From: Thermoplasmata archaeon
GTDB taxonomy: Archaea > Thermoplasmatota > Thermoplasmata > Thermoplasmatales > Thermoplasmataceae
Length of the DNA: 64,000 bases
Direction: 5' to 3'
Assembly (NCBI GenBank): GCA_021820525.1
Contig: JAKADM010000005.1
Coordinates: forward strand, 1-64,000
The notes beneath the pieces were generated by a model that had not been told where the DNA came from, ran no database searches, and was given only the letters and a program-made list of their open reading frames with translations. The translations under genes were made by a program, and so were the position numbers. Positions 17,481 to 38,036 of the stretch are shown here, in pieces. Numbering within the stretch: the first letter of the stretch is position 1; every line of letters starts with the position of its first letter.

Positions 17481-17497
17481 AAAAATATATTAAAATG

Positions 17498-18985
17498 TCA
17501 TATAACATTTCTAATTATGAGCTTAATCTGTTCCCAGGTAATTTCCTTAATTGCCAGGGCGAGAAAGGTGTATACTGCAAGGGCCACCACAATGATGGGA
17601 AACAGGACTATGAAAGGATAGGGCCTGAATAAAATGTCTGATGCAATTAAAATGAGGGATACGGGTATGAAAAGAATGAGGTGTCTGTGAAGAACAGAGC
17701 CATTCCACTGCATGTTGTGTTTTCTATAGGTCGATTTATAAAGAAAGTATGTGAGGAGCGTTGAAAGCGTATATCCAATTGAAGCGCCAAGATCGCTGAG
17801 CCCAAAAAGGTGAATTCCCATAATATTATTTGGTATGAGAATAACATTCAAAATAATATTGGATAAGATCCCAACGGTAGATATTTTTGCAATCTTTCTC
17901 TGGCCATCCTTTGAAATGAGGGCCTGATAAAAGGGAAACTGTATGGATCCCAGGTATGTCCCGATTGCAAGAACACTCAGGGCTGCATAATATTTAAGAT
18001 ATGCCTGACTGTATATGTTAAGAATATATGGGGATAGCCAGAAGAATATCAGAACAAAGGGAAGCGTAATTAGAGATACAATCCTTTCAATTTCAATAAC
18101 ACTTGAATCAAACTCAAGATTTGTTTTAGTAATCTTTGACGACAGAATTGGAAGTATAAACATGCTTACTGATCCGGTGAGTGAAACTATTATGAGGAGC
18201 AATCTCTGATCTGTGTAGAACGCTCCCGTTGCAATGGCCCCATAATAAAACTGTATTATGATCTTATCAATGTTTTCATTGATTACGGCAATACTTGATG
18301 AAAATGCAAGGGGTGCAGCAAAGAGGGCATATTTCTTAATCGTGGAGATATCCGGCCTTTGAAAGTGCCATGGCCTTCCATAGTTAAATGAAAGGGCTAT
18401 GTATATGGAATAGGATAGGCCATAGACCAGAGCAAGTATGACAGATATTCCAACTCCTATATTCCCTTCCAGATTGAGGTAATATACTATACCTATGAAT
18501 ATAAAAATTCCATTTCTCACAAAGGATTCAATCATTCTGGGTATGGCTATGTGTTTTGAATCAAGATTGGCCTGATAATAGGAGTTTGGGACGGAAATCA
18601 GCGTATATATGGCATAATAGGGAAGGATTGCCATAATGGTCCAGAATTCAATGGGATTTTCAAAACCCCTGTGGAGAACCATAACCCAAATCAAAAGAGA
18701 ACCAATAGTAATGCCAATGAAAACCATTGAAAGCATTATTTTTAAAAAAAGGAAGGTGGAAAGGTTTTTTGACCTCTCATCCTCCTGAGTAATAAATTTT
18801 ATATTGGCACTGGAAAGCCCAAGATCGGTAACTATGGTGAATAGGCCTCCGAAAGCAATGGCATAACTCAGAAATCCCCAATATTCAGGTCCAATAAAAC
18901 GATTTATGAAAAACAGAGCTACATAACCCATGAAGGAAGAAATCACTGTTTGAAGAACGATAATTGGAGATCTCTCTGAAAACAC
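17498..18985 (-). CDS. Polysaccharide/lipid-linked oligosaccharide flippase (MATE/Wzx-like)
   Basis: 495 residues with about 14 transmembrane helices. The opening RSPIIVLQTVISSFMGY and RFIGPEYWGFLSYA segments follow the Wzx/RfbX (oligosaccharidyl-lipid flippase) pattern, with a conserved polar position in the first helices. It probably flips lipid-linked glycans used for surface glycoproteins such as the heavily sequon-bearing thermopsin-like protein. It is convergent with the zinc-ribbon gene, and its upstream side meets the 3' end of thsB on the same strand with a 41-bp gap, so read-through from the thermosome promoter is possible. Confidence 0.82.
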   Translation of the reverse strand: MFSERSPIIVLQTVISSFMGYVALFFINRFIGPEYWGFLSYAIAFGGLFTIVTDLGLSSANIKFITQEDERSKNLSTFLFLKIMLSMVFIGITIGSLLIWVMVLHRGFENPIEFWTIMAILPYYAIYTLISVPNSYYQANLDSKHIAIPRMIESFVRNGIFIFIGIVYYLNLEGNIGVGISVILALVYGLSYSIYIALSFNYGRPWHFQRPDISTIKKYALFAAPLAFSSSIAVINENIDKIIIQFYYGAIATGAFYTDQRLLLIIVSLTGSVSMFILPILSSKITKTNLEFDSSVIEIERIVSLITLPFVLIFFWLSPYILNIYSQAYLKYYAALSVLAIGTYLGSIQFPFYQALISKDGQRKIAKISTVGILSNIILNVILIPNNIMGIHLFGLSDLGASIGYTLSTLLTYFLYKSTYRKHNMQWNGSVLHRHLILFIPVSLILIASDILFRPYPFIVLFPIIVVALAVYTFLALAIKEITWEQIKLIIRNVI

Positions 18986-19026
18986 TTAAAATCCAAATAA
19001 AAGAGATATTAATAAAGTTTTAAGGA

Positions 19027-20649
19027 TCAGTCTTCACCGGCTGATCCGCCTGGTGGAGATGAGGATCCTCCCTTTGAGCCCTTTGTTGCGATGACATCAT
19101 CAATCCTCAATATCATCACGGCAGCTTCGGTTGCAGCGTCTATTGCCTGCTTTCCAACCCTTATGGGCTCAATAACTCCAGCCTTCTCCATATCCTCGAT
19201 TTCTCCTGTAAAGAGGTTAATTCCATATTTCTTCTTTCCAGAAGCGTGGGCATTTCTCAGGTTTATGAGTATATCAATGGCATTTATTCCTGCATTCTCT
19301 GAGAGTGCTCTTGGGATCTCCTCAAGGGCATTTGCAAACTTTTCTATGGCGAGCTGCTGCCTTCCGCCAACCTTGTTAGCATATTCCCTCATTCTGACGG
19401 CAATTTCAACTGCAGAGGAACCTCCACCGGTAACGTACTTGCCATCCTCGATTGCCGCTGCAACAACATGTATGGAATCAACAATTGATCTCTCAATTTC
19501 GTCCACGACATGTTCCGTTCCTCCCCTCACCAGAAGGGACACAGCCTTGGGGTTTTTGCATCCTGTGACAAAGGTCATGTAATCGTCCCCAATCTTTATC
19601 TGTTCAACTCTCTCAGCATTTCCAAGGTCTGATGCTGTCAGTTCATCTATGGATGAGGCAATTGATGCACCGGTTGCCTTTGAAAGTTTCTCGATATCGC
19701 TCTTCTTTACCCTCCTCACTGCATATATGCCCTCCTTGGAGAGGTAGTGCTGGGCAAGGTCATCAATACCCTTCTGGGTTATGAGCACTGTTGCCCCTGT
19801 TTCCTTTACCTTCTTGACCATCTCCTTCAGGAGGTTCTCCTCCTCAGACAGGAATTTTTGTATCATTGCGGGGTCATCAATTCTTATGTTTGTGTCAAAT
19901 TCAGGTTTCTTAATTTCAAGGGCTGCGTTGAGAACGGCAATTTTTGCATTCTTAACAACGTCAGGCATTCCGGGGTGAACCTTTTCTTTGTCCACAATTA
20001 TACCGTATATCAGCGTGGTGTCGTCAATTTCTCCGCCCTGCTTTTTCACAATCTGGACATTATCAAGATCTACCTTGTATCCTTTGTCTGTCTTTTCAGC
20101 AACAGCCTTGATGGTTTCATAGGATATTTCTGCCAGTTTGTCTTTGCTGGAAGATGCAGATTTGCTGCTCAGGGATGTTGCGGCCATCTTCATAATGGTT
20201 TCCTTATCATCAATCGAAACCTTAATTCCTGCCTCGTCAAGTATCTCCTTTGCTTTTTGCGCAGCCATTCTGTAACCGTCAGCAATTACAGTTGGATGGA
20301 CATTCTGGTTAATCAGTCCTTCTGCCTCCTGGAGAAGGGCACCGGCTATTACCACTGCTGTTGTTGTTCCGTCTCCAACCATGGAGTCCTGTGTTTTTGA
20401 AACTTCAACCATCATTTTTGCAGCAGGGTGTTCAACATCCATCTCTTTGAGAATGGTTACGCCATCATTTGTTATGACAATGTCTCCAAGTGAATCTACG
20501 AGCATCTTATCCATTCCCCTTGGTCCAAGACTTGTCCTTACCGCTGCAGCGATTCCCTTAGCTGCTTCAATATTTGACCTCATTGCATCTTTTCCGGTTT
20601 CTCTCTTTGAACCTTCCTTTAATATGAATACTGGTTGTCCTCCCATCAT
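19027..20649 (-). CDS. thsB: Thermosome beta subunit (group II chaperonin)
   Basis: 540 residues of a Cpn60/TCP-1 family chaperonin that folds proteins in a double-ring complex. ATP-binding motifs include [16 protein letters not shown] (41-56), [10 protein letters not shown] and GDGTTT (92-97); the C-terminus is a Gly/Ser/Pro-rich tail ending GED. The N-terminal [15 protein letters not shown] and the [16 protein letters not shown] region resemble the beta rather than the alpha subunit of Thermoplasma acidophilum. A TATA element (TTTATATAG on the minus strand, 20677-20685) lies about 30 bases before ATG 20649, giving a very short leader. The alpha subunit is not in this window. Confidence 0.96.
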
Positions 20650-20676
20650 AGTTATCAGCTAGTAAAAATAAACTTC

Positions 20677-20685
20677 TATATAAAC
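20677..20685 (-). promoter_or_regulatory. TATA box of thsB
   Basis: Minus-strand TTTATATAG about 28-36 bases before the thermosome ATG, in the position of an archaeal TATA box for a short-leader transcript. Confidence 0.55.
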
Positions 20686-20714
20686 ATTGCTAAAGAATAC
20701 ACTTTGGGACAAAA

Positions 20715-21017
20715 TTAATCTTGAAACTGTCTTATCTTCTTTTCGTCTTCAGAAGTTAATTTCACTTCCCTCACGTGGCATGTGAGTGAATAACCACCAA
20801 GGAAATCCAGAACTTTATCCCGGTCCTCTTTCCTGAGTATTATGACACCCCTCAGCAGTTTCCTGTGTGGAATATCCTCCATAAAGCCATGCCTGTGGTA
20901 CTTGTATCTACCATTCCATGATGATGAATCCTGACCTTAGAATTTCTGCATAAATTTGTTTATTGTGCCATGATCGGTCTTTTCAGGAAACTGAAACAGT
21001 ATTATGATCCCATTCAT
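20715..21017 (-). pseudogene. Small hypothetical gene interrupted by one in-frame stop
   Basis: The minus strand from ATG 21017 to TAA 20717-20715 reads as a 100-codon alpha/beta protein starting MNGIIILFQFPEKTDHG. Codon 27 is TAA (20939-20937). The frame then continues cleanly with WNGRYKYHRHGFM, IPHRKLLRGVIILRKEDRD and a charged C-terminus. The unbroken protein-like quality on both sides of the stop points to a recently inactivated gene. The family is not recognised; GVIILRKED followed by a helix and a strand suggests a ferredoxin-like fold. It lies at the island border directly upstream of thsB. Confidence 0.6.
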
Positions 21018-21067
21018 TGCGTAAAATAGTCCACATAACTATTTAAACATGTTAATTGTATACAATC

Positions 21068-22181
21068 AATGCCAGAAAGACTTCCTCTGATCTAAGGAAT
21101 ATCGTGAAATCTATAGGAGAAAAATCTTTCCTATATGAGAGGCGCGATTAGAAGGACAGGAACTGGCATGAGTACGATAAGGCACAGGTGAACGAGATCG
21201 TCGATATCCTTGATGCAATAAGGGATTTGGTCATCATTGCTGCTTCCAGTATACCAGAGAAGAAGAGAGGACCGGTAAGACCCCATGTACCATATCAGGA
21301 TACAGTAAAGGTCATGCTAATGCATGCATAGTTCGAAACGCCCAACAGAACCGCGCAAGGATTCCTGAGATTATTCGGGGAAAGCTTGGCATATCATCAG
21401 AATTCTCTTACAAGACAATAGGGGGCTATGATCCTGTAAGGACCGAGAAGATACTAGACGAAGTTTTGAGGATAATGAACCAATCAGGCAATCCCCTTGA
21501 GAAGATATTCTCCACCGACGGCAGAGTAGATCCGAGTTCAATGAAGAGGAACTATGAATCCAGGGGAGCCAGCAGAGGATCGATAAGGAGAAGAATAAGG
21601 ACATGAAATCCGACTCTTTCCCGCACACTGAGGGAAAGCATGACTTCCAGTATTCTTCATTCTCGGCGGGAGTGCACACAAAGATCATCTCCGGATATTT
21701 CACCAAGGATTATCATTCCATTTGGGATCTGTCCATGTTTCCGAACATAATGGCAAAGACAGTGAATATGTGCCCGCAGATCGAAACAATACCTGGGGAT
21801 ACATTATATTCCAATATAAGGATCTTCTCCATCACTGAATAGTATGGTATAACACCCTATTTCTTTCCAAATGCAAATGCAAAGTTACGTGCCAAAGCAG
21901 CCCAGTCATGGAAGACCATGCTCTAAAGTTTCATGGACGATACGCAGAATTGGCTCGAGGAATACCATCTGCGATCAATATCTGAATCTGTCGATTCGAT
22001 GATGAAGAGCAAGATATTTGTCAGGATAAGAAAGAAACTACTTTTGAGGAAGAACACAGAAGAGATACTGAAGATCAACATGCACAATCTCAGGCAGTAC
22101 AGCTATCTGATGCATACAGACCCGGAGATGATAAAAGATTACAGGGAACCGTATCTGAAATACTATTGTCCCAACGCCTGA
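21068..22181 (+). mobile_element. Decayed DDE-type transposase (IS4/IS5-like)
   Basis: Fragments in changing frames read as one transposase, with several stops and frameshifts: KDWNWHEYDKAQVNEIVDIL and onward to DTVKVMLMHA, then GISSEFSYKTIGGYDPVRTEK, then FSTDGR, then HTEGKHDFQYSSFSAGVHTKIISGYF, then a C-terminal helical piece around 21933-22181. The D-G and H-D-F-Q-Y blocks resemble the DDE catalytic region of IS4/IS5-superfamily enzymes. No terminal inverted repeats could be recognised, so element limits are unknown. It is inactive. Confidence 0.65.
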
Positions 22182-22362
22182 AGGTGTAAACAATTATATA
22201 ATAATAAAAGGAGGAAAGTGACATCGATAGTGGACATGATTTGCTGTAATTTCGAAAAGATCCTGTACAGCCTTAATCGGCCTCCATGTTCATATACTCC
22301 GGTGTCACGAATTTTGTGTAAACCCCTGAAACAAGGGAAGTAAATCTTTCGCACCAGGAGAC

Positions 22363-23725
22363 ATGTCTCTGCTGAACAGTACAACAACGGAGGTACGTGT
22401 AATGGTGGAAGACGGGGATAAGAATCTGATGGAAGTAGTAAGGAAGACAGTGAAGGAGTATCTGGAGAGTTTAATGGGAACTGAGAGGGATGTTTTCATT
22501 GAAGAACATGGTTGTCTTAAGAACGGATTCCGTGAAAGATTGATAAAAACGAAGTACGGGGAGATGGAATAGTTCTCATTATCGAGGGACAGGGATGGGA
22601 ATTTTAGGACTGGAATATTCGATCCCTACAGCAGGCCTATTGGAATAGATGAGCACATCTTACCCCTCTATTCCAGTGGAATATGCACTAGAAAGGCCTC
22701 AGGGATTCTGGAAGCCATTTTCCAGAATCGTTACTCAAGGCCATCAATATCAAGGATCACAGATGCTACCATGGAGAAAGTGAGGAGATTCCAGGCACAG
22801 CATATTGATTCAAGGTACATAGCCATATTCCTTGATGCACTGTTCTTCTTCCTCAGGAAGGATACAGTTGAGAAGGAGCCAATTTTCTTTGCCATGGGCA
22901 TGGACATCAAGGAATCTGGGGGATATGAGGTACTTGGCTTCTACACAGATGTAAAGAAATCCCATATGTCTTATGTGGAGGTTGTAGAGAATCTATACAG
23001 CAGGGGAGTGAGGGAAGCGTTACTTTTCATGGCTGATGGTATACCCAAATTGGATGAGGAGATAGGGAAAGCGTTCCCGGGGGCAGATTTTCAATTACGC
23101 ACAATTCATGCATAAAGGAACTTCGCATCGGAGATGAGGGAATTAGATAAGTCAACAATAGACAGGCAGCTGAAGAGAGTATTCCTTTCTGAAACAAGAG
23201 AAGATGCACCTGTGAAATTCGATGAATTCAAATCCCTGTGTAAAAGCAAGCACCCGAGGCAGATATACAATTTGGGAAGGAACTTGAACATGCTAAGAAG
23301 CCTGTGAAATACATGTTCTTCCAGAACGAGACCATTCCGGGAAAGTCTGGAGAAAATAGGGATGCATTCCTGAAGCTTACATAGGGTAAGAACGAATCAG
23401 AGAAGGTTTATCCTATACTGAAAAAGATCGAAAGAATGTATGGTGAATATAAAGAAATAAGGAAGTTTAGGGGGGTCATCAGGAAGTACAGGAACGAGGC
23501 GTTCTACTCCGGCGCACTCCTGCTCACTCAGCCGTTTGAGTTCATCAGGAAGTACAGGAACGAGGCGTTCCTGTACCTGAATAATTCTGAGGTTGAAAAG
23601 ACCTCAGACAAGGTTGAACAGCATTTCTTAATACAGTCATAGCTGTTCAAGCACAGATTCAAGACAGAGGATGGACTCCTGAGCATATCCAACTTGCATC
23701 ATCCCTATCTATCAACCGTGGATGT
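22363..23725 (+). mobile_element. Decayed IS256-family (Mutator-type) transposase
   Basis: Reading across stops gives an IS256-type transposase. The N-terminal part is EVVRKTVKEYLESLMGTERD (22363-22572). A middle part follows: PIGIDEHILPLYSSGICTRK, then YIAIFLDALFFFLRK carrying the first catalytic Asp. Next come GFYTDVKKSHMSYVEVVENLYSRGVREALLFMADGI (second Asp, D-G) and FPGADFQLRTIHA (Q-x3-H motif). The C-terminal part is broken by stops after 23115 and contains an internal duplication. It is a clear family match and clearly dead. Boundaries by inverted repeats were not found. Confidence 0.78.
23476..23570 (+). repeat. 29-bp exact direct repeat within the dead IS256 transposase
   Basis: Bases 23476-23504 and 23542-23570 are identical (TCATCAGGAAGTACAGGAAC and onward), with a period of 66 bp. 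In the second copy the sequence closes into a perfect hairpin, CAGGAACG-AGG-CGTTCCTG. The duplication is in frame (22 codons) and probably arose by slippage or duplication in a gene already out of use. Two copies only, so it is not a CRISPR. Confidence 0.85.
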
Positions 23726-24124
23726 AACAGAGTTTAGAATAGATATATCCTCATTACGGAATCATATGTGTATACATGAAAGGTCATACAAAATACTTCG
23801 ATCATTGAAATAAAATTGTCTCTTTAACGTTCTCAAAATAAGAGCAGGGTTACAATCCCATCCAGATAAAGCAATATAACTGTTCAAGAACCAGATTGAC
23901 TGATGATTGGACCAATACAGTGGGAATTAAGAGTTTTATGTGTAAATAATGACTCTGCTGAGAAGAGAAATGGGTTTCACTTACTCCAACTACACAAAGG
24001 AGATCCATACAAAATATCTGAATATGAAATGGTAAGCGCTGTATACTCAATATTTGTAGTGCTGAATCTTAGTTTGGATAAAGTTAACGCAGTAATACTG
24101 ACATGACGTCCATAATCCATAAAG
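23726..24124. other. Non-coding stretch after the IS remnant
   Basis: About 400 bp with only short shadow frames (for example 23903-24106), no family resemblance and mixed stops on both strands. Probably residual mobile-element sequence. Confidence 0.4.
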
Positions 24125-24133
24125 TATTTATTA
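24125..24133 (+). promoter_or_regulatory. TATA box of the DUF427-egtB-egtD cluster
   Basis: TATTTATTA, centred about 25 bases before the GTG start at 24154. This is the spacing for a leaderless archaeal transcript and would drive all three genes, which are head-to-tail with short gaps. Confidence 0.55.
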
Positions 24134-24153
24134 GACAGATGGCTAATTGATTC

Positions 24154-24543
24154 GTGGAATCAACAAGCAGGACAGATATTGTTATAGATTACAAGCAACG
24201 CAATCATCCCATAAGGGTTGTGAAGGTGAACAAAACACTAACTGTTAAGGCAAAGGGCCAGGAAATACTGAACACAAGGAATGCTTATCTTATCCATGAG
24301 GATGGTCATAAACCCGTTTACTATTTTCCTATCAGTGATGCCAGGCCAGGGGTCATTAAGGAAACCTCCGCCGAGTCCATTTGTCCATACAAGGGCAGGG
24401 CCCATTACTATTCGCTGTTGGTTGGAGACACCGAGCTCAAGGATTCTGTCTGGCGCTATTCGGAACCTTCCAGGGAATTTGAAGCCATAAAGGATTATAT
24501 TGCATTTTATGAAAGCGCCATAGATGGTATTGAGGAATCATGA
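24154..24543 (+). CDS. DUF427 family protein
   Basis: 129 residues from GTG 24154. The family pattern is clear: ...RVVKVNKTLTVKAKG..., HKPVYYFPISDA and SICPYKGRAHYYSL (the ICPYKG-A-x-YY core). The predicted fold is a small beta-rich domain. The biochemical role of DUF427 is not established to my knowledge. It is first in an apparent operon with egtB (46-bp gap) and egtD. Its position suggests a connection to ergothioneine metabolism or to a reactive-sulfur/oxidative response, but this is inference from context. Confidence 0.88.
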   Translation: MESTSRTDIVIDYKQRNHPIRVVKVNKTLTVKAKGQEILNTRNAYLIHEDGHKPVYYFPISDARPGVIKETSAESICPYKGRAHYYSLLVGDTELKDSVWRYSEPSREFEAIKDYIAFYESAIDGIEES

Positions 24544-24589
24544 TGGGACAGGCAAAACATATTAGCAGATTTGAATATGGTGGTGTATA

Positions 24590-25867
24590 ATGAAGTCAGA
24601 TAAATACAATGATCAAAGTTCCGGTAAAGGAATCGTGGAATCATTCAAGGAGACCAGATCAGTGACCCTCGATCTTTGCAGGCCACTTAATAGGGATGAT
24701 TACATGGTGCAGGCCACTCCTGAGGTGAGCCCTCCAAAATGGCATCTAGGCCACACCTCATGGTTCTTTGAGAATTTTATACTGAAGCCTTTCTCTGAGG
24801 GATACAAACCCTTTGATCAGCAATACATGTACCTGTTCAATTCGTATTACGAGACAGTTGGGGAGTATCTGCCCAAACCCAAGAGATCAACAATCTCCCG
24901 CCCAGATCTTGACGATGTACTAAATTACAGGTCCCATGTGGACGAAGCCATAGCGGATCTCATGGCAAATCTCAAGGAAAAGGATCTTCAAGAAGTGAAG
25001 GCGCTCATGGCCCTTGGAATAAACCACGAACAGCAGCACCAGGAATTGCTCATGATGGACATAAAGATGAATTATTCGGTATCGCCATATCTTCCTTCAT
25101 ATGTCAACTCGCATAAAGGAAGCAACACTCCGGTGAATGAACAGGGATGGAAATCATTCGATGAGGCCATAGGGTCAATTGGTTACGATGGGCAGGACTT
25201 CTGCTTCGACAACGAATTGCCCAGACACCGTGAACTGATTCCAAAGTTCAGGATTAGCAACAGGCTCGTTACAAACGGTGAGTACATAGAGTTCATAAGG
25301 GATGGTGGTTACAACAGACCTGAACTCTGGCTCTCAGATGGCTGGATCGCAAGGCGCAGAAACAACTGGACCGCACCTCTCTACTGGGACAATGATGACG
25401 GCGAATTTTATTATTTCACCCTCTCCGGCAGGAAAGAGGTAGATCCTGATGAACCTATTATTCATGTGTCATACTATGAGGCAGATGCGTATGCCAGATG
25501 GGCACACTCAAGGCTACCTACTGAATTCCAGTGGGAATATGCAATGAGGAATTCAGAACTGATCCATCAGGGAAACACCTTGGGCAGCGGCCTGTACCAC
25601 CCAGATGTGCAGGCAGTTAATGATACAGAAATGGCCGGTCCGGGCGGTGCATGGGAGTGGACCTCAAGTGCCTATTCCCCATATCCCGGATTCAGACCAC
25701 TTTCTGGGTCCATAGGAGAATACAACGGAAAATTCATGTCAAACCAAATGGTGCTCAGGGGAACCAGCTGTGTGACTCCAGATGGGCACTCCAGACTTTC
25801 TTACCGTAATTTTTATCATCCAGAGGATCGCTGGCAATTTGCCGGATTTAGATTAAGCGGGGACTGA
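24590..25867 (+). CDS. egtB: EgtB-type sulfoxide synthase (ergothioneine biosynthesis)
   Basis: 425 residues, normal EgtB length. An N-terminal DinB_2-type helical domain carries the putative iron ligands: a histidine in KWHLGHTSWFFE (His 52/55) and the pair in NHEQQHQE (His 146, His 150). A C-terminal formylglycine-generating-enzyme-like domain spans about 195-425 and ends with LRGTSCVTPDGHSR, SYRNFYHPEDRWQFAG and RLSGD. EgtB is a non-haem iron enzyme forming the C-S bond between hercynine and a thiol donor (gamma-glutamylcysteine or cysteine) with O2. No egtA or egtC genes are adjacent, so a cysteine-using variant is possible. GGTGGT before ATG 24590 can serve as ribosome binding site. GC content seems higher than in flanking genes, consistent with acquisition. 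Confidence 0.9.
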   Translation: MKSDKYNDQSSGKGIVESFKETRSVTLDLCRPLNRDDYMVQATPEVSPPKWHLGHTSWFFENFILKPFSEGYKPFDQQYMYLFNSYYETVGEYLPKPKRSTISRPDLDDVLNYRSHVDEAIADLMANLKEKDLQEVKALMALGINHEQQHQELLMMDIKMNYSVSPYLPSYVNSHKGSNTPVNEQGWKSFDEAIGSIGYDGQDFCFDNELPRHRELIPKFRISNRLVTNGEYIEFIRDGGYNRPELWLSDGWIARRRNNWTAPLYWDNDDGEFYYFTLSGRKEVDPDEPIIHVSYYEADAYARWAHSRLPTEFQWEYAMRNSELIHQGNTLGSGLYHPDVQAVNDTEMAGPGGAWEWTSSAYSPYPGFRPLSGSIGEYNGKFMSNQMVLRGTSCVTPDGHSRLSYRNFYHPEDRWQFAGFRLSGD

Positions 25868-25873
25868 TGCCAT

Positions 25874-26830
25874 TTGCAGGAAAGAAATCAGATAATAGAT
25901 ATGAAGCCAAAACTTTCAGACTTCAGGGAGGAGGTTATGAAAGGTCTCCTCTCCACACCAAAAAGAATCAGCCCGAAATTCTTTTACGATGAGGTAGGTT
26001 CCCAGATATTCGAAGAGATAACGCAGTTGTCTGAATACTACCCTACCAGGGCCGAACTTGAGATACTGGAAACCTGTCGCGACGATATAGGTAAAGTTAT
26101 TGGTGAGCGTGCAACTGTAGTTGAACTCGGTAGCGGCAGCGGTAGAAAAGGACTCATACTCCTGGGAGGTCTGATAAAGCCGGCTGAATTTGTATTTGTG
26201 GACATCTCCGCCGAAGCGCTCAAGAGCGCCATCAACCTGGTTCAAAGCCAGTTTCCGCACATACAGGTCAAGGCCATATGTGCCGATTACACCAGGACAG
26301 ACGTTTTGGAACAGATGAACATCTTTGGAAGAAAGGGTATTGTATTTTTGGGATCAACCATTGGCAATATGGAGCCAGATGAAGCAAGGGACTTCATTTC
26401 GGGTTGCCGGAGACTTCTTTCCATTGGTGAAACCCTCACCATTGGTGTGGACCTCAAGAAAGACAGGAATGTCCTTGAGAGAGCTTACAATGACAGTAAA
26501 GGAGTGACTGCTCGGTTCAACCTGAATTTGATATCAAGGATCAACAGGGAACTGGGTGCTGGAATTCCAGAAGGTGCATTTATACACAGGGCATTTTACA
26601 ACGAGAATGAGGGAAGGATCGAGATGCATTTAGAAAGCACAAGAAAACAGACATTCGTCATAGGGGGCAAAGAAGTAAAGTTCGAGAAAGGTGAAAGTAT
26701 ACATACAGAGAACTCCTACAAATACTCAATTGACGAATTTTCTGCAATGCTGAAAGAGGCAGGATTCAACCAGATAAAATTCTGGCAGGATTCCGGAAAG
26801 AGATATGCCCTCTTTTCATCCACTGTCTGA
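25874..26830 (+). CDS. egtD: EgtD, L-histidine N-alpha-methyltransferase
   Basis: 318 residues from TTG 25874; ATG 25901 is an alternative start (309 residues). Trimethylates histidine to hercynine using SAM, the first step of ergothioneine synthesis. Visible family blocks are ISPKFFYDEVGSQIFEEIT, EYYPTRAE (substrate-side tyrosine), VELGSGSGRKG (SAM loop, ~83-93), GSTIGNMEP, GVTARFNLNLISRINRELGA and TENSYKYS. The last includes the Glu-x-Ser pair known to hold the histidine imidazole in the mycobacterial enzyme. It lies 6 bp after egtB, so the two are surely co-transcribed. All diagnostic regions are intact. Confidence 0.92.
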   Translation: MQERNQIIDMKPKLSDFREEVMKGLLSTPKRISPKFFYDEVGSQIFEEITQLSEYYPTRAELEILETCRDDIGKVIGERATVVELGSGSGRKGLILLGGLIKPAEFVFVDISAEALKSAINLVQSQFPHIQVKAICADYTRTDVLEQMNIFGRKGIVFLGSTIGNMEPDEARDFISGCRRLLSIGETLTIGVDLKKDRNVLERAYNDSKGVTARFNLNLISRINRELGAGIPEGAFIHRAFYNENEGRIEMHLESTRKQTFVIGGKEVKFEKGESIHTENSYKYSIDEFSAMLKEAGFNQIKFWQDSGKRYALFSSTV

Positions 26831-27249
26831 TGAATGTTGCCTCAAGATTCCTTCCACTCATCCATGAAATTCAAGATTCATCGGTAAATTTGGTTACAGG
26901 CCATGCTCAAATTCAATGTCAGTTTCCTCGCGAAACGTGCAATTATGGCAGATATTACCACAGGTTATGTAGATCATGGAATCTTGATTGTTGGCTCTGT
27001 TAATTACCAAGGAATTTGCAGATAAATCCCATTCCGTAAATGATCATACAAATCGTTTTTGAATAAAACTATAAGAATTTGTCTCATCCTATCAAAACCA
27101 TTACCGATCTGATATTCCTGTGAAAGGGATGACCAGATGCCTCAACCTCCTCGAACAGTTCGGATAATCCGGTGTGATAATGGTTCATGGATATTGCTCA
27201 TGAGGCCGTGAAAAAGGGTTTAGGTGAGGCTTGGTGGAAAACCTCGGAA
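26831..27249. other. Gene-free gap after egtD with a possible transposase scrap
   Basis: A 419-bp region with no open frame of note. Around 27133-27200 a short frame reads PPRTVRIIRCDNGSWI, faintly like the second-Asp (DNG) region of an integrase-core transposase, but it is too short to call. It separates convergent egtD and the disulfide reductase gene. Confidence 0.35.
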
Positions 27250-28620
27250 TTAACCAATCATATACTTGATATCATTCGTATCTGATGGATAGGTGAACGG
27301 CGTAGACATCAGTGTTTCCGCGTCAATGTTAAGCCTTATGGCCAGAGAGAATATATTTATGACCTCCTCTGAGTTTGCTCCAAGAATATGTGCCCCCAGG
27401 ATCCTCTTTGATTCACTGTCTATTATAACTTTGTAGAAAGATTTTTGTACTCTTCTTCTTATGGAATTGTACCATGAGGTCATTTCTCCCTTTTTGACCG
27501 CGACCTTGATATTCTTTTTTACAGCCTCATCTTCAGTCATCCCAACCATTGCCAGGGGTGGCGAGGAGAATACAGTGGTTGGAATCCCGATGTATTCAGC
27601 CTTGACAGAGTTGCCGTAAAGCAGGTTTTTGGCTGCTATATTGCCTTCCATGACTGCAATTGGTGTCAATTTTGGCCCAGGGGTGTCGGCGGCATCGCCT
27701 GCGGCATATACCCTTGGATTTGATATACTCTGCAGAAAGTCATTTACAGCCACCCCATTTTTGGACCATTTCACCTGACCCTCCTCAAGCCCCATATCTG
27801 AATCTAATTCCCTCCCTGCACCGTGAACTACCAGATCAGTGGAAATTGAGCTCTGCTCACCGTTTCCGGTAAAATATATTTGATATTTGCCACCAGATTT
27901 TTTGATTTCCTTCACAGAGGTGCCTGTAATTATTTTTATTCCAGATTCCCTGAGGTGATCCGTGAGTATTCCAGCGATTTCCCTGTCAAAATTAACAAGC
28001 AACCTTTCAGGATGCTGTATAATGGTAACGTCAGACCCTGCTTTTTTTGCGATGCTGGCAAATTCCACGGATATATATCCTCCACCAATAAAAACTATAT
28101 TTTCAGGAAGGTGTGGAAGGCTGAGGAAACCTTCATTGTCTATGAGGTATTCTGAACCCGGGAAATTCAAAGTTGCTGCTTTAACACCCGACGCAATCAG
28201 AAATTTCTCTGATTCCAGTGTCTCCCCCTGAACATCGACCAGGTTGGGTCCCAGGAATCTGGCTTTTCCGTGAAATACTCTAATACCGCCCTGGATAAGG
28301 CTATCCTCAATTCTTTTTGACATTGGTTCTGTGAATGATCGTTTAAACTCCATGAGTTCACTCCAGTCTATTACTCCGCTGAGATTTGATATGCCGTGTC
28401 CTTGAAGTCTTCTTGCAGATTCCAGTGTTTCTGTGACGCCAACCAGGATCTTCTTAGGATCACATCCTCGCAATGCACATGTTCCTCCGATGGGTTTTTG
28501 ATCGATTACTGCCACCTTTTTTCCTTCCTTCAAAAAACGGAATGCAACCGTAGTGGAAGCTGAACCAGAACCGATGATTACTAAATCAAACTTTGATGCC
28601 ATTTTCTTCATCTTCCTCAT
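27250..28620 (-). CDS. FAD-dependent pyridine nucleotide-disulfide oxidoreductase
   Basis: 456 residues of the glutathione reductase/mercuric reductase/lipoamide dehydrogenase family. The FAD loop GSGSASTT (17-24), redox-active Cys48-x4-Cys53 (GTCALRGCDPKK), NAD(P) loop GGGYISVEFAS and second FAD motif YAAGDAAD are all present. The C-terminal dimer motif normally holding the catalytic His-x-x-x-x-Glu reads TPFTYPSDTND, without the usual histidine, so the classical acid-base pair is altered. MASKF (residue 7) is an alternative start. It is convergent with the ergothioneine genes. Possible substrates are a low-molecular-weight disulfide or metal ion; a link to ergothioneine is speculative. Confidence 0.88.
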   Translation of the reverse strand: MRKMKKMASKFDLVIIGSGSASTTVAFRFLKEGKKVAVIDQKPIGGTCALRGCDPKKILVGVTETLESARRLQGHGISNLSGVIDWSELMEFKRSFTEPMSKRIEDSLIQGGIRVFHGKARFLGPNLVDVQGETLESEKFLIASGVKAATLNFPGSEYLIDNEGFLSLPHLPENIVFIGGGYISVEFASIAKKAGSDVTIIQHPERLLVNFDREIAGILTDHLRESGIKIITGTSVKEIKKSGGKYQIYFTGNGEQSSISTDLVVHGAGRELDSDMGLEEGQVKWSKNGVAVNDFLQSISNPRVYAAGDAADTPGPKLTPIAVMEGNIAAKNLLYGNSVKAEYIGIPTTVFSSPPLAMVGMTEDEAVKKNIKVAVKKGEMTSWYNSIRRRVQKSFYKVIIDSESKRILGAHILGANSEEVINIFSLAIRLNIDAETLMSTPFTYPSDTNDIKYMIG

Positions 28621-28648
28621 ACTTGTTTAAAATATTTAAGTTGTGTGG

Positions 28649-29230
28649 TTATAGTATTTTACCCACATAAAGGGTTATGGCCCCGAGAGTAAGCCCATAG
28701 ACAATGTGACCTATTAGGCCTATTACAAGAACGTCTGGGAGCATCATTGCCGCCTTTGCACCCATCAGTTTCATCATTACTGAAGCAAATACAGTCATAG
28801 CCATGGGCAGGAAAAACACCAGGTATATCACTATGCCGTATATCAGGCCAAGAGCAAGTGATCTGGGTGCTTTTCCCAGCCTAAGTGGTTTCACATACGA
28901 TACCAGTGCGCCAAATATTGCTCCTGCAACTATGCTTACTATGAAATGTCCCAGCACACCCACCATCTCAGCCGAGCCCATTGTAGCACCTAAACCCATT
29001 CCCATTATGAGTGCAAATGTTGTTGAAGGCAGTCCCATCCCAGCAGCACCAGCCATCAGCACTATGAGCATCAGGATTCCTCCAACTATGCCTCCTATTA
29101 TGGATGATATCACCACCTTGCCTGTCCTGAGGTTGTTCTTCATAACGCCAATATGCACTTTCGCATGTTTCATCAGTTCCGCCTTTGTGTCAAACACATT
29201 ACCGCACACTTCACATTTATTCTCTTCCAT
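28649..29230 (-). CDS. C2H2 zinc-finger membrane protein
   Basis: 193 residues. A single classical zinc finger at the N-terminus (C6-x2-C9-x12-H22-x3-H26) is followed by about four Gly/Ala/Met-rich transmembrane helices. This finger-plus-membrane layout recurs in Thermoplasmatales hypothetical proteins. Function unknown; the methionine-rich helices might suggest metal handling, which is speculation. It lies 28 bp upstream of the disulfide reductase on the same strand, probably one operon. Confidence 0.65.
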   Translation of the reverse strand: MEENKCEVCGNVFDTKAELMKHAKVHIGVMKNNLRTGKVVISSIIGGIVGGILMLIVLMAGAAGMGLPSTTFALIMGMGLGATMGSAEMVGVLGHFIVSIVAGAIFGALVSYVKPLRLGKAPRSLALGLIYGIVIYLVFFLPMAMTVFASVMMKLMGAKAAMMLPDVLVIGLIGHIVYGLTLGAITLYVGKIL

Positions 29231-29598
29231 ATTTATCGAATGTTATGATTCAGATTTTGTATTAAAGCGTGCTCCGTCAACGGTTGCAGAAATGTCACTT
29301 CAGAATGAATAGGATATATCCCATGAAAGAGACTATCAAGCAAGTTATAACAAAAGGGGATAACCTCAGGTATATTCTGCAAATATGGGTGAAATGATGT
29401 TGATCAGCTATTTCTCGATATTGATTCATTATGACTTGAAATTAATGGGCTTTTTTAACGCTAACAGACATATGCTTGTATGAAATGGATGGTCCACATT
29501 TCCAATAAATATGGCGCCATATTTGTTTCGATTGCTTTGACCTCAACAGTCAACCCTTGACAGGAAAAATTAGTAGACAGGAAAGTACTTCATACAGC
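29231..29598. promoter_or_regulatory. Intergenic control region between zinc-finger and CARF-like genes
   Basis: 368 bp between divergent genes. No gene is seen. It holds the 18-bp palindrome described separately. A TTG at 29557 opens the downstream frame early, but the ATG at 29599 is preferred. Confidence 0.5.
29507..29524. promoter_or_regulatory. 18-bp perfect palindrome, candidate operator
   Basis: AAATATGGCGCCATATTT is perfectly self-complementary over 18 bases and lies about 75 bp before the ATG of the CARF-like/wHTH gene. A dimeric winged-helix regulator binding its own promoter would fit, but no footprint evidence exists. Confidence 0.5.
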
Positions 29599-30318
29599 AT
29601 GTCTAATAACACTGAATGTATTATAAGAACAATGAATGAGATCATACCAGAACAGAAGAGGACGTTACAGATTGCAATCTTCACAGACGGCCAGTCATAT
29701 AAGGGTATTCGGGATGGGATAAGACTTTTACCCATGGACAAGCTTGTAATAATCCATGAGGAGGTTCACGATAGAATTACAAGACAGACCGAAATACCCT
29801 TCAACGTTTTTGTGAAACAGGTAGCAAGTGCACTGATGACACAAGTTGAAGAGGTGAAGGTTAAATCCGGTGATCTTAATGAGGTACTGGAAGCAGTTAA
29901 ATCAGTATATAAGAATCACTGTAAGGACTATAATGAATTTCTTATGAATGTTACAGAGGGTGGAAAGCTCATGTCCTGCACAGCCATCTCATCAGCTTTC
30001 ATTTTAGGCATAAGGACTTTCTGGATAGATATCAAGGGTGTTCACATGCTACCTATCCTGAAGCTTGGATACCAGAGGATTCTTTCTGAAACCAAGCTTT
30101 CTATTCTTGGTGCCCTGGTAAGGAAGAATGGAAAAGTCGAAAGTCTTGAGCAACTTTCAGAAATTACTGGTCTTGAGAAATCCCTTATCAGCAGGCACTT
30201 AAACGGCACAGAGGATTCAGAGGGGCTGGTCAGTCTTGGCCTTGTTAATGTTAACAAGGGGCCTCGAGGAAGAACCGAAGTGGAAATCACAACCCTCGGG
30301 AAAATTGTTACAGTCTGA
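29599..30318 (+). CDS. CARF-like domain + winged-helix transcriptional regulator (Csa3/DUF6293-like)
   Basis: 239 residues from ATG 29599. The N-terminal part is a Rossmann-like domain with the features of CARF proteins: a first strand LQIAIFTDGQSYKG, then DKLVIIHE, and a later NVTEGGKLMSCTAISSAF block like the NVTGGTK motif of CARF/DUF6293 proteins. The C-terminal part (about 165-239) is a wHTH: LSILGALVRKNGKVESLEQL, TGLEKSLISRHLNG, then a wing, GPRGRTEVEIT. CARF domains sense cyclic oligonucleotides or related nucleotides and often regulate CRISPR loci. No CRISPR array or cas gene is present here, so this would be an orphan sensor. Domain call is by eye. Confidence 0.65.
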   Translation: MSNNTECIIRTMNEIIPEQKRTLQIAIFTDGQSYKGIRDGIRLLPMDKLVIIHEEVHDRITRQTEIPFNVFVKQVASALMTQVEEVKVKSGDLNEVLEAVKSVYKNHCKDYNEFLMNVTEGGKLMSCTAISSAFILGIRTFWIDIKGVHMLPILKLGYQRILSETKLSILGALVRKNGKVESLEQLSEITGLEKSLISRHLNGTEDSEGLVSLGLVNVNKGPRGRTEVEITTLGKIVTV

Positions 30319-32005
30319 TTTTTCCAGCCGTCGGATTGTTTCACTGTACATCCATCTCTCCTTCTTTATACCAAAGTTTGTTGCTCTGATTGAATTTTGG
30401 CAGATATAATATCCTTATTCCACCCATGGATCTTTTGAATTTATGGCAGAAACGCTTTAACTCTCAAGGTTAATTATTCTTAGCTTCCTGGTGCCATTTT
30501 TTCAACACTGTCACAGAGTTGGCCTTGTCTGTAAAGTTTTATTTCACCGGCTGAGCTGTGTCTGGTTCATTCTCAGAAATTAATCGTTCAATAAAATGGT
30601 TTGAAAGGTACCCTGAAGCTGATCACATGGTTTTATACATAGCGCAATAACTCTTGCCGCATGTCATTAAATATTGAAACATCTGATGCAAAAATGGTGT
30701 CCATAACAATACGGAATTAAATAGCACGTTCGTAACAATCGAGATGCGAGCAATGACTGCAATTTCTACTTCTCGCAAGTAGGGGAATGAGCTTGTTAAA
30801 TGCAGGAAACATACTTCAAAAGATCCGAGAACAGCAGGGAGAAGGGCCAAGAGGTTAAGAATATAATGTTTCAAAGTACTCAAAGAATGAAAATAATCGA
30901 GGAGACCTTCAAAACTCAAACTTCAGCAAATGTTTAAATTGACAGTGATCTGAGAAAGAATCCAATGGAGTTCAGATATGATCGGAATCTGTTGGATGGA
31001 GGATTCTCTTGCACCACATCTCCAGGTAATTCCATGCGAAGGACGGCGTACTCAGATGCCAAGATATATTTCTTATATGGGATCTGAGTGAGGTGATACT
31101 GATATATTATCACTAAAAGAATATAGTTTCCACCAGCACGGAACCATCGTTGCCAGGTATATACCGTCAAAGATGAGAGCCTACGGCACTCACTGTCCCT
31201 AAATGAAAAATATACGCGTTTTCGAAGCTGTGAACCAAATAACAGGATAATTCACTGACATGATATCTGATGCATTAACGCCATAAAATTCCGCAAATAT
31301 CTCGAGGTTCTCTGTAACCTCTCCCAGCTTTCGCAGGGAGTTTATCGCTTCAAAGGTTGCTGACCCAATCTCCGTGGCATTGAATTGCCTTCTGCCAGAA
31401 GGTACTCTTTCTTTCAAGCCCAGCCATTTGACCTTACGGATGCAGGCACGCATGAAGCAATATGCCATCCGACCTTTCTCACTTCTGTCTGTCAGCGGGC
31501 GATACAATATGTTGGGAGAAATTATAAAGTTTCGCTCGCTTTAATCCCCTCTCTTGAGACAGTGGGAATTTCCGGCTCACGTAGGTTAAACGTCAAAAAA
31601 TGAAAAGAGAAGTCGATCATTACTGACAGTTCGAGATACTCTTTAGCAAACTTGATTATACTAAGGCTGGATGAACATAAGGATCAGTTGTTTTTCGATC
31701 ATCTTTATTCGTACTCTCCGGAATCCAATCCTCTTGAGTGGCCGTGGAAACTCCTGATTAACCGGAGATTGCTAAACAGGTATTTTCCATGCCTGAAGGG
31801 GAATGATATGAGGGGTTGTCCAATAATTCACGGCATGGATCGAAGAAAATGAAATTCTCAATCCCCAATGTTACCTGGAATTCGGATCACATAGGACAAT
31901 ACTAACCGTCTTGTATATACCCTAGCGAAGGAAGTTCCATATACCTGTAATCCACCTGCAACCGTTGACTGAATAATATTAAGAAAGTTATTCTCATTAA
32001 GATCT
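30319..32005. other. 1.7-kb degenerate region with transposase scraps
   Basis: No intact gene. Short frames in several phases suggest multiple decayed mobile elements. A 102-codon minus-strand frame (31199-31507) contains GLKERVPSGRRQFNATEIG and looks protein-like but unassigned. The IS630 C-terminal remnant at 31652-31852 is listed separately. The rest shows frequent stops on both strands. Confidence 0.5.
31652..31852 (+). mobile_element. IS630-family transposase, C-terminal remnant
   Basis: The frame gives LYSYSPESNPLEWPWKLL, the hallmark C-terminus of IS630/Tc1-like transposases (typically Y-SPELNPIE-x-W-x-x-L). The catalytic Glu corresponds to the E in NPLE. The remainder of the enzyme upstream is unreadable, so this is a relic. 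Confidence 0.68.
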
Positions 32006-32506
32006 ATGGTTAATTTCGACAATGATTTCAAAAACAGAATGCAGGAGAGGATGGAAAGGTTCTCAAAATTTGATGAAAGAGGCAATGTGTCATCTAAAAT
32101 CGTCGTCATAGTTAGAAAGGGCGATAATCTAACTTCAGAAGCAAGTCAGGAGGGTCTGGATTTTTCATGGGTTTCTCACGAATCTGGCCCAAGCCCATTA
32201 GCTTACTTTCTTTCAAGCCTGGGTATGTGCCAAATGGTACATTATGCTGAACACGCTGCTTCACAGGAAATTAAAATAGATGATCTCAAAATAACCGTTG
32301 AGGGCAAATTCAGTATAAGCAGGCCAAGACACTTCTCCGAGATCAGATATCACGTTGACTTGAGGTCGCATGAAGACACTGAGAGATTAATAATGCTGGC
32401 TTCTTCAGCTGCCTCGGACTGTTATATCACAAACACTTTGTCAAAAGCCTGTGTCGTTGAAGGAACACTTACAATAAATGGTAAAGATCTGGAAAAGGTT
32501 AAGTAA
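32006..32506 (+). CDS. OsmC-family protein (peroxide reductase-like)
   Basis: 166 residues. Both family cysteines are present: Cys75 in GPSPLAYFLSSLGMCQMVHY and Cys139 in ASSAASDCYITN. These are the pair used by OsmC/Ohr proteins to reduce organic hydroperoxides. An unusually long charged N-terminal helix (FDNDFKNRMQERMERFSKF) precedes the core, as in the YhfA/OsmC-like subgroup. It is the first intact gene after the degenerate region and probably part of the island's oxidative-stress cargo. Confidence 0.85.
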   Translation: MVNFDNDFKNRMQERMERFSKFDERGNVSSKIVVIVRKGDNLTSEASQEGLDFSWVSHESGPSPLAYFLSSLGMCQMVHYAEHAASQEIKIDDLKITVEGKFSISRPRHFSEIRYHVDLRSHEDTERLIMLASSAASDCYITNTLSKACVVEGTLTINGKDLEKVK

Positions 32507-32563
32507 ATCCTGCAAATCATTCTAGTAAAATGATAATCAATCAAATGGATAACCGGTGGAACG

Positions 32564-33022
32564 ATGGAATTATTTAAAAATTCTTCTTTACAAATGAAGA
32601 TCAGAGACTATTTTCTCTTCCTGGCAATTCTTGGTGTAATTTTTTCTCTTGTGGAGTTAAGAGGTGACTATATTCTAGCTCCACCTTATGCAGTATCCGC
32701 TTATATCATTGTTTTTCAAAGAAACACGAAGTATTCCAGCAGGAGTGCATTGGCCGTAACATATTTCCTGGTTATAGTCTCATCAGATTTTTTACATGTT
32801 ATTTTAGGTAATAACCTTCTTGGAATGATACTAGATGTTCTGGTTGTTTCTGGTTTCATAACGTTTACCAACTATTCACATCCACCCGCCATCGCCTTAA
32901 CAATTTTTTCCTATTTGATTGCAAGTCCCCTGGATTTCACTATTTCATCCGTTTTATCGCTTATAGCATTGATCTCTTCCTCAATTCTCTTAGAAAAATA
33001 TATTCTTAGAGACTTAACATAG
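32564..33022 (+). CDS. HPP-family integral membrane protein
   Basis: 152 residues with four or five transmembrane helices. APPYAVSAYIIVFQ and the SHPPAIALT block contain the His-Pro-Pro that names the family. Some HPP proteins have been linked to nitrite transport in chloroplasts and cyanobacteria; the archaeal role is not known. It follows the OsmC gene by 57 bp on the same strand and may be co-transcribed. Confidence 0.78.
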   Translation: MELFKNSSLQMKIRDYFLFLAILGVIFSLVELRGDYILAPPYAVSAYIIVFQRNTKYSSRSALAVTYFLVIVSSDFLHVILGNNLLGMILDVLVVSGFITFTNYSHPPAIALTIFSYLIASPLDFTISSVLSLIALISSSILLEKYILRDLT

Positions 33023-33411
33023 CTATATTTAGAAAATGTGTATTATGTCAGATCTCAGTTTTGCACGCATCAGAATAAGGATATTGGATACGTTGAGTGG
33101 CCTGTCTCTCCTTCAGTTGTTAACCTTCCCAAAAAGTACATTCCAGTTCCTAATGGAATCAGGATTTATAAGATCTTATGGGATATGGACTAAAGATCTG
33201 TTGTATCTATCTCAACGGCTTTCTCTTTTAACAAAATACCTTCTTATGCCTCTATTCCATGACATATGGGCTGGTATGCTGCACATGAGATTCACCAGCC
33301 AATACATCATAATCTGCTATCTTAATGTCTGACAATTAGGAAACACACTTCACTTTCAATAAAAGATAATATGATCGCTAATGAATTAGCGCATTGCTTC
33401 AAAAAGAATTA
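33023..33411. other. Gap between HPP gene and tRNA-Leu with possible gene scrap
   Basis: 389 bp. One frame near 33090-33190 reads EWPVSPSVVNLPKKYIPVP, protein-like but short and followed by a stop, possibly the relic of a larger gene. The overlapping 98-codon frame from 33036 has no such quality. Nothing else is seen. Confidence 0.35.
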
Positions 33412-33496
33412 TGCGGAGGGCCGGATTCGAACCGGCGAACCCCTACGGGAATGGACCCTAAATCCATCGCCTTTAACCTAGCTCGACAACCTCCGC
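33412..33496 (-). tRNA. tRNA-Leu (anticodon TAG)
   Basis: Minus strand. Acceptor GCGGAGG (33496-33490) pairs with CCTCCGC at the 3' end, discriminator A at 33412. The anticodon loop ATTTAGG has anticodon TAG on a GATGG/CCATT stem. A long class II variable arm (TCCCGTAGGGGTTCG region) precedes the T-arm CCGG-TTCGAAT-CCGG. No intron. It marks the right border of the accessory island. Confidence 0.95.
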
Positions 33497-33732
33497 TCTT
33501 ACCCCACATTTTGATTGGGCACATTAAACTAACTCATATTTTTTCATGTATAAAAAATATATCTAACTGTGCGGAATATTTATGGAAAATCCCATTATAT
33601 CTTAATAAATGAAGTCTTTCTGTCAATTATTTCAAATTTTATGGATATTTTAAGATCGTTTTTCATATTTTAAAGAGAGAATATTATGAACTATATTGCA
33701 ATCTTATTTAACTTTGAAAATATACCAAAGGG

Positions 33733-34341
33733 ATGATGCTTTTAGATTCCATAAAAGAAATTTTACTCTCGGGAGATTTCGTCCATATAAGTTTGAACAA
33801 TGATGAAAAACATTTCACGTCATGTTTTTCAAAAATGGAATTTATGACGGCATATGCATACCTTAACAATTTACTGCAGAAAAATAAGATACAATCAATA
33901 TATGTTTCCACACCCCCCTCTATTTACAGGGGCCAAGATGGGGAGTTCAGGGAGTATGTGGAAATGAAGAATACAATGTTCAGAACTCACTCAATAAATG
34001 AAATAGAAGCATCTCTTCTGAGAGAATATAAGGGGTTGAAAAAGGCCGACGGAAAATGGATCAAAAGCATGAGCATATCCATATTTGATCCCACAAATCT
34101 TGAGGAGATGGAGGATTTTTACGGTAAAAAATACTTTGTGTTTACAGGCTTCAATACAGATTCTGAAATTTTATTAAACTCAATGCTCTCATCGGACAAT
34201 GGGTTCGTTCCAATCGTCATATCTGACTGCGTTTCCAGTCCATCTGAAAGGACCCATTTTGGTACACTTGAATGCATTTCAAAATTTGCATATGTTATTG
34301 ATTCAAGGGATATTGAATCTATGACAGGGGTGGGTATATGA
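33733..34341 (+). CDS. Isochorismatase-fold protein lacking the catalytic cysteine
   Basis: 202 residues. The C-terminal half has the cysteine-hydrolase/isochorismatase pattern: YFVFTGFNTDSEILLNSM (normally G-V-x-T-x-x-C-V), followed by GFVPIVISDCVSSPSERTHFGTLE (normally D-A-x-S...H). The nucleophilic Cys after the GFNTD loop is replaced, and the early catalytic Asp is not evident, so hydrolytic activity is doubtful. ATG 33736 is an alternative start; AAAGGG lies directly upstream. It overlaps the kinase gene by four bases (ATGA), implying translational coupling and perhaps a shared process. Fold assignment is by eye. Confidence 0.55.
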   Translation: MMLLDSIKEILLSGDFVHISLNNDEKHFTSCFSKMEFMTAYAYLNNLLQKNKIQSIYVSTPPSIYRGQDGEFREYVEMKNTMFRTHSINEIEASLLREYKGLKKADGKWIKSMSISIFDPTNLEEMEDFYGKKYFVFTGFNTDSEILLNSMLSSDNGFVPIVISDCVSSPSERTHFGTLECISKFAYVIDSRDIESMTGVGI

Positions 34342-34943
34342 GAAATTTTCCTGTAATTTTGATTGGTGGTGTGCCAGGAGTTGGTAAAACAAGCATTTCT
34401 GGATATGTCGCAAGAAATCTTGGAATCAATCTTGTGTTTTCAGGGGACTATATCAGGGAAACAATCCGTGCCTTTGTGGATGAAAAAAATATATTGAACA
34501 AAAGCGTTTACGACAGCTGGCAGGCTTTCGGCGAAAACAATGAGGAAAATCTGCTGAAGGGTTTTAATGCACAGGGAGAAATGGTAAACCGAGCCACAAA
34601 GAAGATTCTGGAAAGGGCAATAGACAACGGAGAACCTGTAATCATAGAAACACTTTATTTCATTCCTGAACAGCTGGGTGATCTGATCGAGAATATAACT
34701 TCCATTTACCTTTACATAGAAGATGAAAAACTTCACATAGAAAGGCTCAATGAACGGCAGAATTATACCCATTTTGGATCTTCAGGCCAGCGGCTTTCAT
34801 CCAATATTAAAAACTACAGGGTAATCATGAAGAAATCTCTGGAATATGCAAGAAAATGGTCAATTCCAGTTGTTAACAACAAAATATATGAGGAAACAAG
34901 AGAGCAGATTCTTGAAATTTGCAGAAAAGATCTTAATCACTAA
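34338..34943 (+). CDS. P-loop kinase, 2-phosphoglycerate kinase-like
   Basis: 201 residues with Walker A GGVPGVGKTS (10-19), a conserved SGDYIRETIRAF segment typical of archaeal 2-phosphoglycerate kinases and related small-molecule kinases, and a mid-protein PVIIETLYF strand acting as Walker B equivalent. Archaeal 2-phosphoglycerate kinases take part in cyclic 2,3-diphosphoglycerate synthesis and are longer; this shorter protein may phosphorylate another small molecule. Its coupling to a pseudo-isochorismatase is unusual and gives no clear substrate. Confidence 0.7.
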   Translation: MRNFPVILIGGVPGVGKTSISGYVARNLGINLVFSGDYIRETIRAFVDEKNILNKSVYDSWQAFGENNEENLLKGFNAQGEMVNRATKKILERAIDNGEPVIIETLYFIPEQLGDLIENITSIYLYIEDEKLHIERLNERQNYTHFGSSGQRLSSNIKNYRVIMKKSLEYARKWSIPVVNNKIYEETREQILEICRKDLNH

Positions 34944-35008
34944 AAATATTCAAAACTTGTATGAATATAAATAACAAATTGTTTTAAACCGTATTGACAT
35001 GTTAAATT

Positions 35009-36334: not shown

Positions 36335-36385
36335 TGTTAATATGGAAAAGCATAATTTTTAATTGTTTAAAAATATAAACATGCC

Positions 36386-37960: not shown

Positions 37961-38036
37961 ATGGAACTTTGAGATTATTTTTAAATTTTTTGCCCTCAGG
38001 ATCAAGGATATCTATTTTCTTATAATATCCTAATAC

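Follow-up and report, generated by a model that had tools for sequence, protein, structure and literature searches.

Ergothioneine genes in archaea are known from surveys. In Thermoplasmatales, one survey (PMC7554672) already reports egtB and egtD, and a second paper (PMC11349054) reports the egtB-egtD pair OXIME_001566/001567 of Oxyplasma meridianum; this is the same gene pair, in the same archaeal order, as the one described here. As consulted here, the two papers mention neither DUF427 nor transfer between genera. The closest enzyme among known structures is the type-II EgtB of Chloracidobacterium thermophilum (PDB 6o6l, 6qki, 8qf6), which prefers cysteine and has Tyr93-Tyr94 where Mth has Tyr377 (PMC10903977; PMC11993508). 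The mycobacterial egtABCDE system has EgtD and the sulfoxide-synthase step in common with the operon described here, but the EgtB types differ, and neither EgtA (GCS2) nor an EgtE equivalog was found in the family genomes that we searched. The enzymes are thus of a known kind, and what is new is the recurrent pairing of DUF427 with egtBD. The locus bears on how archaeal ergothioneine genes spread and on what else the pathway needs: it is an ergothioneine operon that, along with other redox genes, has passed from one archaeal genus to another, and its site is empty in a sister species.

The window, which is the whole 64,000-nucleotide stretch of DNA from an acid-loving Thermoplasmata archaeon that was analysed, contains the operon with the following features:

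24125..24131, plus strand: TATTTAT box, a predicted promoter element about 26 nt 5′ of the DUF427 GTG
24154..24543, plus strand: DUF427 (PF04248) protein, 129 aa, beta-tent fold, GTG start
24590..25867, plus strand: EgtB, type-II-like sulfoxide synthase, 425 aa (TIGR03440, 543 bits)
25874..26830, plus strand: EgtD, L-histidine N-alpha-methyltransferase, 318 aa, TTG start (TIGR03438, 364 bits)

An ORF check finds all three genes intact and co-directional, where the first-pass annotation had placed them. We consider it very probable that they form a working type-II ergothioneine operon, and that a lineage close to genus g14 was the source of both the operon and the 12.7-kb redox island that carries it. 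The products are predicted to be active enzymes. EgtD would trimethylate histidine to hercynine; EgtB, using non-haem iron and O2, would combine free cysteine with hercynine to give the sulfoxide; and ergothioneine would be released either by a PLP enzyme, for which SufS or some other cellular lyase is a candidate, or in a spontaneous step. The DUF427 protein would be a co-transcribed putative accessory. The operon is real and probably functional, and its association with DUF427 is what deserves testing.

The identity of the two enzymes is clear from equivalog models. EgtB scores 543.2 bits on TIGR03440 (cut-off 360) and stays under the cut-offs of the selenoneine model SenA (351 versus 420) and the ovothiol model OvoA (115 versus 400), and EgtD scores 364 bits on TIGR03438 (cut-off 290.9). 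The best PDB match of EgtB is the C. thermophilum enzyme (1e-129), with which it can be aligned over its full length at 49% identity, whereas the EgtB entry 4x8b matches at only 1e-38. EgtB residues H55, H146 and H150 align with C. thermophilum H62, H153 and H157, which serve as the iron ligands in the structures; within the WHLGHT motif the ligand is presumably the second histidine. The catalytic tyrosine pair also lines up, Y86-Y87 corresponding to Tyr93-Tyr94 and being invariant. By this relationship the window EgtB belongs to the cysteine-using type II, although it differs from its C. thermophilum relative in lying on its own archaeal-clade branch and in an operon that has DUF427 and no egtE. 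In EgtD, residues Y38, Y55, N165, E279 and S281 correspond to Y39, Y56, N166, E282 and S284 of the M. smegmatis enzyme, presumably its histidine-binding set. The first-pass annotation had described the diagnostic parts of both enzymes as intact, with active-site loss in a proper alignment as the observation that would count against function; every active-site residue tested is retained in both.

Several features suggest that the three genes are expressed and maintained together. DUF427 and egtB are separated by 46 nt, and egtB and egtD by 6 nt. The TATTTAT box and the position of the DUF427 start are kept in three relatives (G210, G261 and G246), the GTG aligning with an ATG in G210 and G261, and this conservation fits the reading of a leaderless promoter; the proposal that DUF427 shares one transcript with egtB and egtD, and that this transcript is leaderless, is therefore probably correct as judged from the DNA. 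The dN/dS values of DUF427, EgtB and EgtD are 0.08–0.15 in comparisons with G210 and G261, which indicates purifying selection on all three. The operon had also been described as more GC-rich than its neighbours, and this is borne out by egtB (GC 47.2%, GC3 51.5%), which in both measures lies above every one of the 29 other window CDSs measured (GC average 40.8%, maximum 46.1%).

A shortened route that uses cysteine directly had been suggested from the lack of adjacent gamma-glutamylcysteine genes, and a wider search points the same way. A search that gave scores in five control genomes detected no gamma-glutamylcysteine ligase (GCS2) gene in 14 genomes of the family, of which 10 are at least 90% complete. 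Together with the type-II EgtB this supports direct use of cysteine, which would be the sulfur donor. The preference of this EgtB is judged from its type-II relationship and from gene absence, and it might instead use gamma-glutamylcysteine obtained from outside or made by an unrecognised ligase; against this stand those same two observations, and we regard it as quite improbable. For the last step, no dedicated C-S lyase EgtE scored above cut-off in the 14 genomes, the best candidate in the window's own genome (G000) being a SufS-type desulfurase (471 bits versus a cut-off of 475, on a fragment). A dedicated EgtE is not always needed for ergothioneine synthesis (PMC11993508).

Besides the window's own genome, 25 of 400 class genomes encode an EgtB above the cut-off; all belong to the window's family, and egtB adjoins egtD in 26 of the 26 family loci read. 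In trees that included 81 (EgtB) and 70 (EgtD) bacterial rows, and that were built without ammonia-oxidising and methanogen EgtB, the Thermoplasmata sequences of each protein occupy one side of a branch, apart from the bacteria (SH-aLRT 97). A stray import from bacteria into a single archaeon is contradicted by this distribution and by the grouping of the sampled copies in one Thermoplasmata clade; a bacterial origin of the archaeal egt genes, if any, is older than the inter-genus transfer. Two candidates were set aside: a sister position of Fictibacillus to the archaeal EgtB clade (support of 88 in one tree, and absent from the EgtD tree) and the M1 peptidase as a species marker (too many paralogues).

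The operon has been transferred between archaeal genera. The window EgtB and EgtD group with those of G210 (genus g14) and of one of two operons in G261 (genus g10), with support of 100/100 and 100/98, and an AU test rejects a single clade for the window's genus g1 (EgtB, p 1e-133; EgtD, p 8e-75). In the RpoB tree, genera g1, g14, g10, g13 and g16 are each recovered, and their support is full or nearly so. No rpoB was found in the draft genome G000 (86% complete), so its genus placement rests on its genus label and on 90–92% synteny with the sister genome G276. G261 carries two different egt operons (L054 and L077): a window-type operon that includes DUF427 and another that corresponds to its own genus. 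Because the window copy and the extra G261 copy lie inside a group otherwise composed of g14 and g13, the donor was likely near g14, within the same family, which would set the direction of transfer.

The operon would have entered the species as part of a larger segment, whose features are:

20692..33410, no strand: genomic island, 12.7 kb, absent at the same site in sister genome G276
22360..23650, plus strand: decayed Mutator/IS256-type transposase (PF00872, 1.3e-42 when read through stops)
27250..28620, minus strand: FAD-dependent disulfide reductase of the GR/MerA/LPD superfamily, redox motif GGTCALRGC (CxxxxC)
28649..29230, minus strand: membrane protein with an N-terminal C2H2 zinc finger, DUF6789-like (below cut-off)
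29557..30318, plus strand: HFX_2341_N-like/HTH regulator (weak matches), 87% identical in G210
32006..32506, plus strand: OsmC-family protein (PF02566, 2.7e-17)
32564..33022, plus strand: small HPP-like membrane protein (weak match), 83% identical in G210
33412..33496, minus strand: tRNA-Leu(TAG) (ARAGORN), its 3′ end abutting the right edge of the island

One contig of G276 matches positions 17491–20691 and 33411–38346 at 92% and 91%, with 903 bp between the two matches, and the island block is missing from G237 as well. The empty site in a close relative, the odd composition and the discordant trees identify a genomic island. The tRNA-Leu(TAG) is present in G276 and G237 too, but on inspection the left border has no att direct repeat copying the tRNA end, and no integrase was found among the island proteins searched; we therefore do not class it as an integrative element. 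The island proteins are 81–88% identical to those of G210, compared with 76% for RpoB between genera. The disulfide reductase, 88% identical in G210, reached no equivalog cut-off among the 25 matches listed, and the DUF6789-like protein is linked to it in G210, G246 and G327. In G210 the downstream block is kept together but inverted with respect to the operon, and in G246 an OsmC homologue lies directly 5′ of DUF427-egtB-egtD on the same strand. We also note that the block of reductase, DUF6789-like, regulator, OsmC and HPP genes (27250–33022), a possible thiol-stress module, accompanies the operon in G210 and, in part, in G246 and G327. The operon had been thought to sit between dead insertion sequences, and this holds for the upstream side, where the transposase is broken, but not downstream, where the genes are intact, conserved and not of insertion-sequence type. 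The only other insertion-sequence trace is a weak DDE_3 scrap near 31.6 kb (E 0.003), and the segment at 21.08–22.2 kb, considered as a further candidate, has no Pfam match and is not counted as an insertion sequence.

Loss of the island from G276 and G237, rather than its gain in G000, is the formal alternative, against which the trees and the identities speak. In its full form, this alternative holds that genus g1 inherited the operon by vertical descent and that the sister species lost it, with no transfer between genera; it would agree with the position of the genes within an archaeal clade, and the draft genomes G276 and G237 are 87–89% complete. However, the AU tests reject the genus g1 clade for both genes, one of the two G261 operons groups with its own genus and the other with the window's, the island proteins are more identical between genera than RpoB, and a DNA search gives no match to the 27.2–30.4 kb block in any of the eight congeners, which include two genomes of 97% completeness or more. 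Vertical inheritance is strongly disfavoured, and we give it very little probability. The first-pass annotation had proposed acquisition, with vertical placement as the contrary outcome; instead the genes nest in an archaeal clade in conflict with the RpoB genera, and horizontal transfer is supported, although the genes came most recently from another Thermoplasmatales genus and not from a bacterium.

The DUF427 protein matches PF04248 well above its gathering score (2.1e-29; 101.6 bits versus 22.1). Its AlphaFold2 model (pLDDT 94) has the same fold as 3djm, the Rhodobacter sphaeroides DUF427 protein and the nearest structure (TM 0.80–0.93, 30% identity), and also matches yippee domains weakly; the model agrees with the assignment of DUF427 to the beta-tent fold (PMC4287342). 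All 22 sequences compared have Y57, C77, K80, G81, Y85, W100 and Y102 in common. In the class genomes searched DUF427 was found in 20, all within the window's family, and it lies directly 5′ of egtBD in five archaeal operons (G000, G210, G261, G246 and G270), four of which are close kin in the EgtB tree. Among the 80 bacterial egtB loci listed, four have DUF427 within about 6 kb, in each case directly adjacent and co-directional; the titles of their records name Deltaproteobacteria, Gemmataceae, Saprospiraceae and Acidobacteria. A limited literature search found no paper that has both DUF427 and ergothioneine. The earlier suggestion of DUF427 as a candidate accessory factor thus gains independent genomic support from archaeal and bacterial adjacency, and a link to the ergothioneine pathway is plausible on this pattern.

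The reading that DUF427 has no functional tie to ergothioneine, its adjacency reflecting chance or hitch-hiking in a redox island, must be given considerable weight, a little short of an even chance. Nine of the 26 EgtB-bearing family genomes have no detected DUF427, in five others (G067, G190, G116, G194 and G267) it lies far off or on another contig, the nearest homologue of the window's DUF427 in G327 is near the reductase without egtBD, and adjacency occurs in only four of 50 bacterial genomes. On the other hand, these 50 genomes have 27 DUF427 genes, of which about 0.08 would be expected beside egtB by chance (P ~1e-6), and the four co-directional cases are assigned to different groups. 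The adjacency is retained in five archaeal operons, and DUF427 is present in 17 of 26 EgtB-positive compared to 3 of 21 listed EgtB-negative family genomes (p 0.0009, uncorrected for relatedness). The locus makes DUF427 a testable candidate, adjoining egtBD in archaea and in bacterial genomes assigned to several phyla, in a family with no detected EgtE. We speculate further, while thinking it unlikely, that DUF427 performs an unrecognised step of type-II ergothioneine metabolism through the invariant Cys77 and Lys80 and aromatic residues. It might, for example, act on hercynylcysteine sulfoxide, recycle ergothioneine that has been oxidised or stand in for the missing EgtE; if so, the bacterial egtBD-DUF427 link would be functional.

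Some minor observations were made on other loci. The egtB of G294 (L076, 6992–8265) is split into two overlapping ORFs by a frameshift or an assembly error, and single ORFs of about 765 aa at L179 5887–8187 and L221 5908–8202 match both EgtB and EgtD, and appear to be bacterial fusions. The window's own genome has a 42-aa relic of an egtD C-terminus on another contig (G000:C10, about 2191–2340; L090, 1489–1614), 60% identical to the window EgtD and, by eye, in frame with an apparent transposase fragment; it is a second, dead egt remnant. Elsewhere in the window, positions 5660–9247 encode a 1195-aa thermopsin-family protein with C-terminal matches to prealbumin-like (SpaA) domains.
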